Source of the DNA: Nitrospirales bacterium
GTDB taxonomy: Bacteria; Nitrospirota; Nitrospiria; Nitrospirales; UBA8639
Assembly: GCA_029261355.1 (NCBI GenBank)
Contig: JAJDBM010000058.1
Span: 248,001 to 312,000 of the forward strand
Direction: 5' to 3'
DNA length: 64,000 bases
Shown here in pieces: positions 36,839 to 48,785 of this stretch (positions are counted from its first letter, which is position 1; each line of letters starts with the position of its first letter). A program made the position numbers and the translations under genes. The notes beneath the pieces are model-generated. The model was given only the letters and a program-made list of their open reading frames with translations, made no database searches and was not told the DNA's origin.

Positions 36839-37186
36839 GAAGCTTAGAAAAGTTGTTGGCCCTTTTGCCAATGACTATAGCGAATCAAAATACGTTTCAC
36901 TTGAACGATGCAGACTTTCTACGCGGTATCAAACGCTTCATCGGAGGGAAGGTTATACCTGCTTGGCACAACGACGTAGGATTAACACGTGTCATGTCGC
37001 AGGGAGTCTCGGTATTCTGCGTAGGCATGAAGCCGATTCGGTATCACTAATCGGCTATAACAGGGACCGTTGCATTTCTGTTCTATTCATTATGCCGTGA
37101 ATGATAACCTTTGAATTCGAGAGTTGAGTGTTGAATTGTAATAGCCATGTCATCAACCAAAACAAGTAACCTGTAAAGAGGAGGGA
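36839..37186. other. gap, no supported gene
   Basis: A 60-codon frame (ATG 36871 to TAA 37048) reads MTIANQNTFHLNDADFLRG and onward, without ribosome site or known family. It could be a gene fragment. Nothing else seen. Confidence 0.35.
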
Positions 37187-39371: not shown

Positions 39372-40052
39372 GTGAAAAAACTGAGTGATCTCAAAAGTTG
39401 CCCTCTGTTAGAAGGTATCCCGTCGGAAGACCTTCGTCGTGATTGTCCAACTGCCAAGGTGTTGACGTATCAGTCTAAGGAAACGATTTTTGGACAGGGA
39501 GAGAATGTTCGAGCAGTCTTTTGTCTACTCGCTGGTCAGATCACCCTCTCTCGGGTTAGCCGTGAAGGCGAGTCATTCACCACTGCTCTGTTTGGACCTG
39601 GAGAGTTTTTCGGGCCGACGTTGAGCGGTAACCTGGAGGCCGATGATACTGCAAGGGCCAAGGAGACTGCCACGGTGTGGCAAGTGCCGATCGAGGAGTT
39701 TCGGTGCCTGCTGCTTAGCCATCCTGTCGTGTCCTGGGAGTTTATCGCCATTCAAGCACGACGCCAACGTCAAATAGAGCGGAGACTCGAGGGCTTGGCA
39801 TTCAAACGAACTGAGGTTCGGTTAGCCGAGACTTTCATTGAACTATCTGGAGACTTTGCAACCCGTTGCGAACACGGATTCGGACAACACCTTCACCTCA
39901 CTCAACAAGAGTTGGCTGACCTCGTGGGAGCGAGCCGGCCAGTCGTGAGCACAATCCTCAATAAGCTCCGGGACAAGGGCATTCTTGGGTATAGCCGAGA
40001 ATATGTCTGCGTGCGAGGTATCGACGAGATCAAGCAGTTAATTAATCCCTGA
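39372..40052 (+). CDS. Crp/Fnr family transcription regulator
   Basis: A 226-residue regulator from GTG 39372. A cyclic-nucleotide-type beta barrel (FGQGENVRAVFCLLAGQITLSRV, FGPGEFFGPTLSG) leads to a winged helix-turn-helix with LTQQELADLVGASRPVVSTILNKLRDKG. Cysteines at residues 10 and 25 (KSCPLL, RDCPT) do not match the FNR cluster spacing. Effector unknown. The 95-residue monooxygenase-like gene starts 122 bases downstream, so it might be a target. Confidence 0.88.
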   Translation: MKKLSDLKSCPLLEGIPSEDLRRDCPTAKVLTYQSKETIFGQGENVRAVFCLLAGQITLSRVSREGESFTTALFGPGEFFGPTLSGNLEADDTARAKETATVWQVPIEEFRCLLLSHPVVSWEFIAIQARRQRQIERRLEGLAFKRTEVRLAETFIELSGDFATRCEHGFGQHLHLTQQELADLVGASRPVVSTILNKLRDKGILGYSREYVCVRGIDEIKQLINP

Positions 40053-40174
40053 TTGCTCACCTGACTGTTATCTAGAGAACAGACGCGTTCTTCTGCATTC
40101 GCTAGGATGTCGTCAATCGCTCGATCCTGAGCGTTTAACTGCGGCATTGTCGCGAAAACAGAAGGGAGCCTATC

Positions 40175-40462
40175 ATGAGCAAAGCGTATCTCGAAATTAC
40201 ACTTCAGGTTTCGGAGCAGAATCGTAGTCAAGCTGGTGAGGTCTATGCCAAGTTCAAGCAGCCGTTTCTTGATACGGTTAGCGGTTCGAAATCAAAAGAA
40301 TTACTCGTGCGCGAAGCAGACGTGCAGGTTCTTCACGGATTTAATACGACTGCATGCGCTGAGAACTATTTGAAGTCTGCTTTGTTTCAGAACGATATCG
40401 TTCGTGCCTTGACGCCCTACCTTATTGCGGAGCCAGAAATTAGAATCTACGAAGCGCAGTAG
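40175..40462 (+). CDS. ABM-like dimeric alpha-beta barrel protein, probable integron cassette gene
   Basis: A 95-residue protein: YLEITLQVSEQNRSQAGEVYAKFK, LLVREADVQVLHGFNT and YLIAEPEIRIYEAQ fit the ferredoxin-like fold of antibiotic-biosynthesis-monooxygenase and related small proteins. AAGGGAG lies just before ATG 40175. The stop codon is 20 bases before a consensus attC site, the exact structure of an integron gene cassette. Function unknown, as for most cassette genes. Confidence 0.75.
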   Translation: MSKAYLEITLQVSEQNRSQAGEVYAKFKQPFLDTVSGSKSKELLVREADVQVLHGFNTTACAENYLKSALFQNDIVRALTPYLIAEPEIRIYEAQ

Positions 40463-40481
40463 AGGCACGTTGTTCACATGC

Positions 40482-40538
40482 CGCCTAACAGCACACGGAG
40501 TTTGATAGTCGTATGAGGCTCACGTGCGCCGTTAGGTG
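40482..40538 (+). other. integron attC recombination site
   Basis: The left simple site GCCTAAC (40483-40489) matches RYYYAAC and the right simple site GTTAGGT (40531-40537) matches GTTRRRY. The inner arms AGCACACGGAG (40490-40500) and CTCACGTGCGCC (40519-40530) pair with two G-U type mismatches and one unpaired T, the extrahelical base expected in attC. An 18-base spacer is in the middle. Total length is about 55 bases. No integrase gene is in the window. Confidence 0.75.
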
Positions 40539-40806
40539 AATTATTTGACTATGGGAAATGGTTAGGGGTTACCCCATTAGGTACATTCCGTGTCGATTAT
40601 CTACCTGAATTCCCAATCGTTTCCATTAACAAGAGTTTGTAGGGTGCGGACGTTAAAACGAGGCGCTCAAGCTGCTCGAAGCGCCCTGAGAATAAGGTTC
40701 CATTTTCCAAAAAACTGGAACCAATGGTTCGAAGTTTTTCCAGTGGTCTCCATCATTTCCCGTAACTGTCTGATCATAAAGTTATTAATCTCCTTTTTTA
40801 TAGACT

Positions 40807-40820
40807 CACCAAATCATACT
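40807..40820. repeat. 14-bp direct repeat, copy 2
   Basis: CACCAAATCATACT, identical to 32333-32346 at the tRNA-Ala end. To its left there is no tRNA-like sequence; to its right is the second recombinase ghost. Confidence 0.65.
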
Positions 40821-40905
40821 ATCCATCTTTTTTTTGATCGCCTAAAAGTCTGCTACCCTGCGCTGTTTGGGCGATTCGAAACCTCATATTTCAGTCATAC
40901 GATAT
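40808..40905 (-). pseudogene. second serine recombinase C-terminal ghost
   Basis: On the minus strand the frame reads ISYD, stop, NMRFRIAQTAQGSRLLGD, QKKDG, stop, YDLV. It aligns with the tRNA-linked copy, PYDRNEGFRITSTALPFRVLGD, MRGGKYDLV, residue for residue. Two in-frame stops and many substitutions show longer decay than copy 1. Upstream parts of the gene are not recognisable. Same orientation as copy 1. Confidence 0.72.
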
Positions 40906-40910
40906 CACGC

Positions 40911-41396
40911 ACGTAATTTTTAAGACTTTCCAAGTGAATTATGCCTTGAAAAGTGTAGGTATTTCTTACTAAACAGAGTGATGAATTCCTAGCCCTGATT
41001 CTACCCTCCGCCATCTCTCGACTACGCCAAGATTGCATCATCCAGTTATTAGGATGATGCCAGCAAGTTGTGTAAAGAGCCTTGTCGCTAATCCTATCCA
41101 GACTTAGAAACTCTGTCTTTCCATAAACATGAGAAATGAGGGCGCGGTAATTAATCACAAGCTCTATTTCATTTTTTTTCCTTCCCGTTCGATTCGAAAC
41201 AGTAAATATTTAAGTTAGGTAATGAATTAGTTAATTAAAACAATGGATTACGAGTGTAAGCAGTTTAATTACCTATTATTGTAATATATGACACTTTAAG
41301 CATGCTAATATGCTATAAGTGTTATGGATCACGGAGACATCACGAATCAATGGGTCTCAAATTTTACTTTTCTCATACTCACAAAGGAGCATTCAC
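40911..41396. other. gap with hairpin and large palindrome
   Basis: GCATCATCC (41035-41043) and GGATGATGC (41052-41060) form a perfect nine-base stem with an eight-base loop. No gene recognised. The palindrome at 41291-41322 is listed separately. The region from 41160 is very AT-rich, fitting a promoter area for the gene at 41397. Confidence 0.45.
41291..41322. promoter_or_regulatory. 32-bp palindrome upstream of DUF4142 lipoprotein gene
   Basis: ACACTT-AGCAT on the left is mirrored by ATGCT-AAGTGT on the right, with a two-base swap between arm parts. It ends 75 bases before the start codon and could be an operator or a spaced activator site. Regulator unknown. Confidence 0.5.
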
Positions 41397-41981
41397 ATGA
41401 TGAACACATTTAAGTCTTTTCTCTATCTGGGATTAGCCGGGAGCATTTTCTTCGGTGGGATGGTTGCGACCGGCTGTGCTACCTCGAACGATCACGCTAT
41501 GAATGGTAACGCTATGGCAAACGACACCCCGGCATTTAATGATTTAGAAATAGCGCATATTGCCTATACCGCGGGCGCCATCGATATTCGCTATGCCCAT
41601 TTGGCTCTTGCTCTGGCCGAAGACCCTGAGGTGTTGAAGTTTGCTGAGTTGATGGTTCGTGACCATACTGCCGTGAATAAGAAGGCCCTGGCGCTCGTCA
41701 AAAAATTACAAATTACCCCACAGGATAATGGCATGAGCCAGCAGTTGCTCAAAGGAGCCGTAACCATTCGCAACGAACTCTCTCGGCTGCATGGGCCTGC
41801 TTTTGCGAAGCGGTATGCGGCGAATGAACTGGGTTACCACAAAGCAGTGAATCAGGCTGTGGAAAAGACCTTAATTCCAACAGCCCAAAATGCGGAATTA
41901 AAGGCTCTGCTGACCGGTGCCCTCCAGACATTTAAAGTACATCAAGAGCATGCCGTCGTGATGAACGAGAAATTGCAATAA
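41397..41981 (+). CDS. DUF4142 lipoprotein
   Basis: A 194-residue lipoprotein. ATG 41397 is chosen for AAAGGAG at 41383-41389; the frame opens earlier. The signal sequence ends at the lipobox ATGC (GGMVATGCATS). The mature DUF4142 domain, a ferritin-like four-helix bundle by family, runs from LEIAHIAYTAGAIDIRYA, through FAELMVRDHTAVNKKALAL, to KVHQEHAVVMNEKL. Members are periplasmic and often linked to stress. It precedes a cupredoxin gene by 25 bases on the same strand, so an operon is likely. Confidence 0.88.
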   Translation: MMNTFKSFLYLGLAGSIFFGGMVATGCATSNDHAMNGNAMANDTPAFNDLEIAHIAYTAGAIDIRYAHLALALAEDPEVLKFAELMVRDHTAVNKKALALVKKLQITPQDNGMSQQLLKGAVTIRNELSRLHGPAFAKRYAANELGYHKAVNQAVEKTLIPTAQNAELKALLTGALQTFKVHQEHAVVMNEKLQ

Positions 41982-42006
41982 TCATAGAGAAGGGGGTGAC
42001 ATAATC

Positions 42007-42354
42007 ATGACCTCCCACAAAATCAATATGCTATTGATCGTGGGTTTGCTCGTGGTTGGTGCCTTTGACAGGGAGGGCTTGGCTCAAACGACCTCCCTGC
42101 CACAGCGCCACGTCGTGCAGATTGATGGCTTTGTGTTTCAGCCACCACAAATTAGGGTTGTCCCAGGCGATACGGTAGTGTGGGTCAACCGAGACTTTGT
42201 TCCACATTTCATCAGTGTAGGTGAAGGGAAATGGCAGTCAGACGTGTTGGAAGAAAACCAATCTTGGGAACTCGTCGTCAACGAGACAGGGAGTTTTAGC
42301 TATGTGTGTGTGTTTCATCCAAAGATGATCGGAATTGTGACGATCCATGATTGA
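42007..42354 (+). CDS. secreted plastocyanin-like cupredoxin
   Basis: A 115-residue protein with signal peptide (LLIVGLLVVGAFDREGLAQ) and a compact type 1 copper domain: the first His in FVPHFIS, then SYVCVFHPKMIG near the C-terminus giving Cys, His and Met. PGDTVVWVNRD is typical of plastocyanin/pseudoazurin-like folds. It probably carries electrons or copper in the periplasm. AAGGGGG before ATG 42007 is a good ribosome site. It is linked to the DUF4142 gene upstream. Confidence 0.88.
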   Translation: MTSHKINMLLIVGLLVVGAFDREGLAQTTSLPQRHVVQIDGFVFQPPQIRVVPGDTVVWVNRDFVPHFISVGEGKWQSDVLEENQSWELVVNETGSFSYVCVFHPKMIGIVTIHD

Positions 42355-47951: not shown

Positions 47952-48785
47952 TCAGATAGGGGAGGCCTGCATGGATTTTACGCCACTGGTAAAGTTGACA
48001 GCAATTTCTAACCACAGACCGTTCTCGTCACATAAAGGTCTTAATTCATTGAGGTGAGCCTGTTTAAATTCGTGGATTTTGTCACCTAACTGTTCGATGA
48101 AGCCTCGATAGCCCGCATTCCATACCACGTCCCACCAACCGTCTAGGTCAATATGATACCCGAGTGAGCGCGTCTCAATATGCATGTTATCAAATCCAGC
48201 TTGAGTGAAAATATTCTGTAATTGCTCTTCCTCCGACATACGCTGCCACCCAATCGGCTGAGGAATTTCCAATCCATACGAACGCAATCGATCGAGGCAG
48301 AGTTTCGCCATGGGTTGAAATGAATCCCCACAAAACCCACTAATGAGGACGCGTCCACCTGGTTTTATCGTTTTGGTGATATGTTTGAGAGCCTCACTCA
48401 TATCGTCCACAAAGAAGAGGCCAAATGCACAGGTGGCATGATCAAAGCTGTGCGAGACAAACGGGAGCTGTGTCATGTCGTGAGTGTGAAAACCCAGATT
48501 ATTGAGTCCCTGCTCTGCTGCTGCCTGACTTGCTTGTTCAAGCATGCCAGATGAGAAATCCACTGCGGTGACTTGCCCCTTGGGCAGTTTTCTAGCCAAG
48601 GGCAGAGCCGTCGCCCCAGTGCCCGATGCGACATCTAGGACAGACTCGTTCCCAGTCAGATCTAATAACTCCGCCATGATCTCGCCGCTTACGTGAAAAA
48701 ACCGACTGGCTCTGCGGCCGTAACCCTGAGCCACGGTATTGAAGGTTTGCTTCATGAACTGTTTTCGCGTCTCTTCATCGTGCAT
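47952..48785 (-). CDS. class I SAM-dependent methyltransferase (UbiE-like)
   Basis: A 277-residue methyltransferase. Motif I is VLDVASGTGATALPLARKL, then VTAVDFSSGMLEQA for the adenosine side, DMTQLPFVSHSFDHATCAFGLFFV and KPGGRVLISGF. The Rossmann core is of the UbiE/Methyltransf_11 kind; the C-terminal 90 residues presumably bind the substrate, which is unknown. It stands alone on the minus strand. Confidence 0.88.
   Translation of the reverse strand: MHDEETRKQFMKQTFNTVAQGYGRRASRFFHVSGEIMAELLDLTGNESVLDVASGTGATALPLARKLPKGQVTAVDFSSGMLEQASQAAAEQGLNNLGFHTHDMTQLPFVSHSFDHATCAFGLFFVDDMSEALKHITKTIKPGGRVLISGFCGDSFQPMAKLCLDRLRSYGLEIPQPIGWQRMSEEEQLQNIFTQAGFDNMHIETRSLGYHIDLDGWWDVVWNAGYRGFIEQLGDKIHEFKQAHLNELRPLCDENGLWLEIAVNFTSGVKSMQASPI

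Follow-up and report, generated by a model that had tools for sequence, protein, structure and literature searches.

The regulator, the palindrome and the ABM-fold gene

The window, by which we mean the whole 64,000-nucleotide stretch analysed here, comes from a Nitrospirales genome of 4.63 Mb (74 contigs, 99% complete). It contains a gene for a Crp/Fnr-family transcriptional regulator, a palindrome, a small gene for a protein of the dimeric alpha+beta barrel type (hereafter, the barrel gene) and, 20 bases past the barrel-gene stop codon, a hairpin resembling an attC site (59-base element) of integrons (Table 1). The original prediction, made from the letters alone, had described the last two as a solitary integron cassette; the open reading frame and the site are found exactly as it described them.

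Table 1. Features of the window and attC sites behind related barrel genes
Feature	Coordinates	Strand	Remarks
Crp/Fnr-family transcriptional regulator gene	39372-40052	+	226 aa; Pfam cNMP_binding 1.6e-13, HTH_Crp_2 4e-12
Palindrome CTGTTATCTAGAGAACAG, proposed operator of the regulator	40065-40082	+	Conserved in relatives, again between regulator and barrel gene
ABM-fold (dimeric alpha+beta barrel type) gene	40175-40462	+	95 aa, TAG stop
attC-like hairpin	40483-40537	+	55 bases; R'' = GCCTAAC (40483-40489), R' = GTTAGGT (40531-40537); bottom-strand fold z -4.4
Single extrahelical base	40522	+	A on +, T on -; on R'-L' arm, from folds
attC of L088/G137			34.8 bits
attC of L112 (= G087)/L083			32.2 bits
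attC of L119			29.7 bits
attC of L116 (KSB1 MAG)			26.6 bits
attC of L125 (cyanobacterial MAG; could be misbinned)			19.1 bits
Decayed attC form of L117			10.7 bits

No Pfam or NCBIfam match was found for the barrel protein, the Pfam ABM model included; that model matched one of ten relatives, at 0.0037. The AlphaFold2 model shows, with high confidence (pLDDT 95.4), a ferredoxin-like alpha+beta fold, and the best Foldseek matches (NE2512, YgiN, LsrG, putative ABM monooxygenases) had E-values of about 1e-6 to 1e-5. By both measures the protein has the ferredoxin-like alpha+beta barrel fold of the ABM-fold family; it is like YgiN, LsrG and NE2512 in fold (TM 0.73-0.82), while being only about 9-20% identical to them. 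Relatives are encoded in at least 314 genomic stretches of one-per-species genomes, from Actinomycetota, Bacteroidota, Bacillota, Pseudomonadota, Nitrospirota and other phyla, and in 30 plasmid records; none was found in the viral contigs searched. The gene had been called an orphan; it belongs instead to a widespread family of many phyla and sits in a regulator-linked chromosomal unit. In four betaproteobacterial loci (L138, L149, L153 and L189), the barrel domain apparently follows a signal-peptide-like N-terminus, and in the last three it apparently has another barrel gene beside it as a tandem partner (both read by eye).

In Nitrospirota, the barrel gene usually lies 3' of a Crp/Fnr-family regulator gene, with the palindrome CTGTTATCTAGAGAACAG between the two, and an orthologue of the window regulator is immediately upstream in seven of the nine relatives that possess the barrel gene. 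The palindrome is the sole full match in the whole genome, with 0.05 expected in the window. Regulator, palindrome and barrel gene stay together while the flanking genes vary between genera, and homology of the window with its two nearest relatives spans both genes and ends short of the hairpin, somewhere from 7 nt upstream to 13 nt downstream of the barrel stop codon. The simplest reading is that the two genes form a regulated unit, which is transferred or inherited in one piece. The regulator probably binds the palindrome and would control the ABM-fold gene through it.

Two further features were seen in this part of the window. At about 36870-36967 lies a short dispersed repeat of about 65-95 bp that occurs dozens of times, at 71-91% identity, in the source genome and same-genus relatives; one of its reading frames gives NDADFLRGIKRFIGGKVIPAW, which has no Pfam match. 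A DUF4142 and cupredoxin gene pair at about 41360-42340 is present once more on the same contig, about 25 kb off and at 71% identity (C58:314624-315599).

Sequence, fold and rarity of the hairpin

The R'' and R' boxes of the hairpin fit RYYYAAC and GTTRRRY and are complementary but for one mismatch, as is expected of attC simple sites. Folding of the bottom strand gives one 17-pair stem, in which a T is the only bulged base, and a loop of 18 bases, at -13.5 kcal/mol compared to -5.6 +/- 1.8 for shuffles, none of which equalled it; the fold of the top strand is weaker (-9.9). Thus, consensus simple sites, inner arms paired with one extrahelical T, and a start 20 bases after the stop codon, all of which had been predicted, were borne out by the sequence, by folding of the bottom strand and by the coordinates.

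The bare pattern GCCTAACN{40,70}GTTAGGY occurs twice in the genome, compared to five occurrences for the reversed control, and so the end pattern as such is not enriched. The other GCCTAAC..GTTAGGY site, on contig C31, is located inside a coding ORF and for that reason was regarded as a chance match. End boxes combined with inner-arm pairing gave 0.07 hairpins per 64-kb window in an order-2 Markov simulation, and 1,200 simulated windows contained no such hairpin of the energy seen here. Among 89 other loci, amounting to 2.0 strand-Mb of real DNA, one independent site of this kind was present, in Streptomyces. Therefore, the hairpin exceeds what chance would give for the window, though it was picked after the fact.

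A stem-loop in this position could have nothing to do with integrons: it could be a chance or selected structure at the 3' end of the transcript, mRNA-stabilising or acting as a weak terminator, with ends that match attC boxes by accident. The lack of enrichment of the bare end pattern agrees with this explanation, while the energy unmatched in simulation speaks against it. Nor does the stem look like a terminator, there being no T run after it and no entry for it in an intrinsic-terminator scan. An Rfam scan of the window returned nothing but two tRNAs, and none of the other genomes of the barrel-gene family that were checked has the hairpin of the window.

Comparison with attC sites and the search for an integrase

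To score the hairpin as an attC, we used a covariance model built in this analysis from 19 integron-associated attCs, none of them linked to a barrel gene; they came from class 1 plasmid cassettes, a Gemmatirosa array and sites in IntI-bearing Nitrospirota loci. Its E-values are rough, given the small size of the model and the trimming of its arms. The attCs of arrays, including array members left out of model building, scored about 30-58 bits. The hairpin scored 11.7 bits, with only the outer R boxes aligned, which corresponds to E 0.35 in the full window, and the same score was obtained at an unrelated site at 1735-1787. The hairpin thus has neither L''/L' boxes recognisable by the model nor a score above background, and a background score is what an unrelated stem-loop would give.

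By definition, an attC has two or three extrahelical bases on the R''-L'' arm and an unpaired spacer between R and L, and inversion of the extrahelical bases or pairing of the spacer lowers attC recombination (Bouvier et al. 2009, PMC2727003). The hairpin has one extrahelical base, on the R'-L' arm, and its bottom strand is paired throughout the central spacer, with G-T wobbles. Both features again fit a stem-loop unrelated to integrons. The integron-array attCs that we scored have R''-L'' polarity in the cassette orientation and the opposite polarity when read backwards; the polarity of the hairpin is reversed relative to the barrel gene, while the identity of its bulged base (T, bottom strand) fits the usual attC orientation, and the site is therefore a mixture. 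A cassette in the opposite orientation, as suggested by the bulge polarity, was considered and rejected: the ORFs at 40895-41158 (reverse) and 40590-40916 (forward) have no credible family match. In short, the hairpin is like an attC in its R''/R' simple sites, its stabler bottom strand and its position shortly past a stop codon, and it differs in the L boxes, in the bulge and in the spacer. "Near-ideal", as the site had been called, describes its two outer boxes only.

A search of the source genome for other attCs revealed none at E up to 10. A comparable search of relatives gave matches in 97 of 147, including the site behind the barrel gene of G137, which served as a positive control. IntI was searched for with the TIGR02249 model at its cut-off of 265 bits, and no protein of the source genome was above it. 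The best match (77.6 bits) consisted of two matched pieces separated by far fewer residues than in the model; it would be a Xer-type recombinase without the IntI-specific segment, as its spacing would fit. IntI above the cut-off is encoded in 77 of 346 Nitrospirota genomes and is absent from the source genome and from the listed same-genus genomes. Thus, neither IntI nor two or more clustered attCs, by which an integron or a CALIN is recognised, were found in the assembly, which, at 74 contigs and 99% completeness, may lack a piece. The original prediction had itself named a low covariance score, together with no other attC and no integrase in the genome, as grounds for abandoning it, and this is the combination that emerged: a score at background, no second attC and no IntI above the cut-off.

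Integron annotation is known to yield false positives from lone attC-like sites, and the present case shows that a match of the outer boxes and a stable hairpin are insufficient, and that covariance score and bulge polarity decide. IntegronFinder 2.0 requires at least two attCs by default to call a CALIN (PMC9024848), and singleton attCs were removed by Ghaly et al. 2021 (PMC8352920). The window shares with a CALIN the presence of an attC-like site where the genome has no detectable IntI but differs in having one site, at the background score of the model. In Nitrospirota, IntegronFinder 2.0 reported only 2 CALINs, in N. inopinata (PMC9024848). The view that integron parts are little described in this phylum is a fair one as regards the literature, yet there are the 77 genomes of the phylum with IntI above the cut-off. 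Several Nitrospirota genomes, e.g., G107, G118 and G087, have up to 14 attC-like sites each, spread over several contigs, in a phylum with very few integrons in the literature.

A usable solitary cassette, consisting of the barrel gene or of regulator plus barrel gene and inserted by an integrase at an attG-like site far from integrons, would be no new kind of thing, since cassette insertion at dispersed attG sites is already known (Loot et al. 2024, as cited in PMC11023631). The consensus simple sites with intact AAC/GTT triplets and the occurrence of IntI elsewhere in the phylum would suit such a cassette. Against it are the background score, the lack of IntI and of a second attC in the genome, and the single bulge on the wrong arm with no unpaired spacer, changes of the sort that lower recombination (PMC2727003). 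In addition, no convincing upstream boundary (GTT) was found 5' of the barrel gene, where homology continues through regulator and gene; the homology with the nearest relatives crosses both and stops short of the hairpin. An empty site could not be identified in same-genus genomes, where the region is not conserved. We consider a usable cassette in the window quite improbable.

attC sites behind related barrel genes and the origin of the hairpin

Genuine attCs are present 20-31 nt past the stop codons of several related barrel genes, in Nitrospira, in a KSB1 MAG and in a cyanobacterial MAG. A strict-consensus search past stop codons missed sites with non-consensus ends, which were found by reading the sequence and with the covariance model. 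Across 80 loci of the family, the three strongest model matches are all just past the stop of a barrel gene. The attC starts 21 nt past the stop in L112, L117, L119, L125 and L088, compared to 20 for the hairpin. These copies and L116 encode the same protein family as the window, with the site in the same place, and L112, L117 and L119 share the upstream operator palindrome as well; they differ from the window copy in having canonical L boxes and bulge polarity and scores of 19-35 bits (10.7 for L117). The solitary-cassette proposal is thus not supported for the window copy, while part of it stands for the family, related copies of which do carry genuine attCs. That they are attC-tailed speaks for a cassette in the window, and in L119 the next gene, for a methyltransferase, is also followed by an attC, a weaker one (18.0 bits).

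The sequence common to L119 and L125 begins shortly upstream of the start codon and extends into the attC, a pattern that fits the transfer of a single-gene cassette, if L125 is not misbinned. In L112, AAT/ATT replaces AAC/GTT with pairing kept. This hints that the stem of an attC can persist once its role in recombination is lost, although the cases are too few to prove selection. The protein tree unites five rows with an attC and four with a decayed or partial one (L086, L113, L114 and L123, so labelled from the sequence read by eye, not from the covariance model) in one clade with support 97/96, and the attC-bearing copy of L116 has a separate origin. In related lineages, the family has on at least two occasions become attC-tailed and thereby a cassette gene. 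The closest companions of the window copy in the tree are L081 and L082, which have no attC (support 97/88); together they stand outside the nine-row attC clade, and the inner part of its hairpin aligns with no related attC.

Taken together, the placement of the hairpin and its outer boxes suggest a degenerate attC-like remnant. We put at about 0.5 the probability that the hairpin is a decayed, non-functional remnant of this kind behind a resident regulated gene pair. The resident chromosomal pair of regulator and ABM-fold gene would end in a degenerate hairpin, which retains of an attC only the outer boxes and their usual spacing from the stop codon. L boxes, extrahelical bases in the right place and an unpaired spacer have been lost or were never there. 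Without these, and with no integrase found, the hairpin should not recombine; it may be at most an inert relic or a 3' transcript hairpin. Descent from an attC would account for the complementarity of the boxes, the more stable bottom strand, the 20-nt spacing and the attCs behind related copies. The evidence for descent is circumstantial; simple decay would not lead one to expect the opposite bulge polarity, the window copy falls outside the attC clade, its hairpin shows no inner similarity to related attCs, and the hairpin recurs in no other genome of the family.

Given the score, the polarity and the phylogenetic position, with the nearest relatives free of attCs and an inner part unlike related attCs, a stem-loop unrelated to integrons is almost as likely. 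Its ends would then match by accident, and yet boxes and stop distance both agree with what is seen in the true attCs of other copies of the gene.

With the true attCs of its related copies, this family lends itself to the study of how chromosomal genes gain their first attC and turn into cassettes. A broader scenario, which we regard as unlikely, is that a resident regulated gene family was made a cassette several times independently (in the Nitrospira clade, in the KSB1 MAG and perhaps in the window lineage), with some attCs kept as an RNA or DNA hairpin after loss of the recombination triplets, as in L112. If true, the family would be a natural series for watching a chromosomal gene gain an attC.

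Two observations were made downstream of related barrel genes. In L119, the methyltransferase gene (1043-1855) is UbiE-like and its weak attC is at 1915-1972; relatives of it are found behind the barrel genes of L085 and L088, and a further one is encoded at 47952-48785 of the window. In a Betaproteobacteria MAG contig (L113:7835-7912, + strand), some 1.5 kb beyond the barrel gene, there is an attC-like site of 24.3 bits that points the other way.
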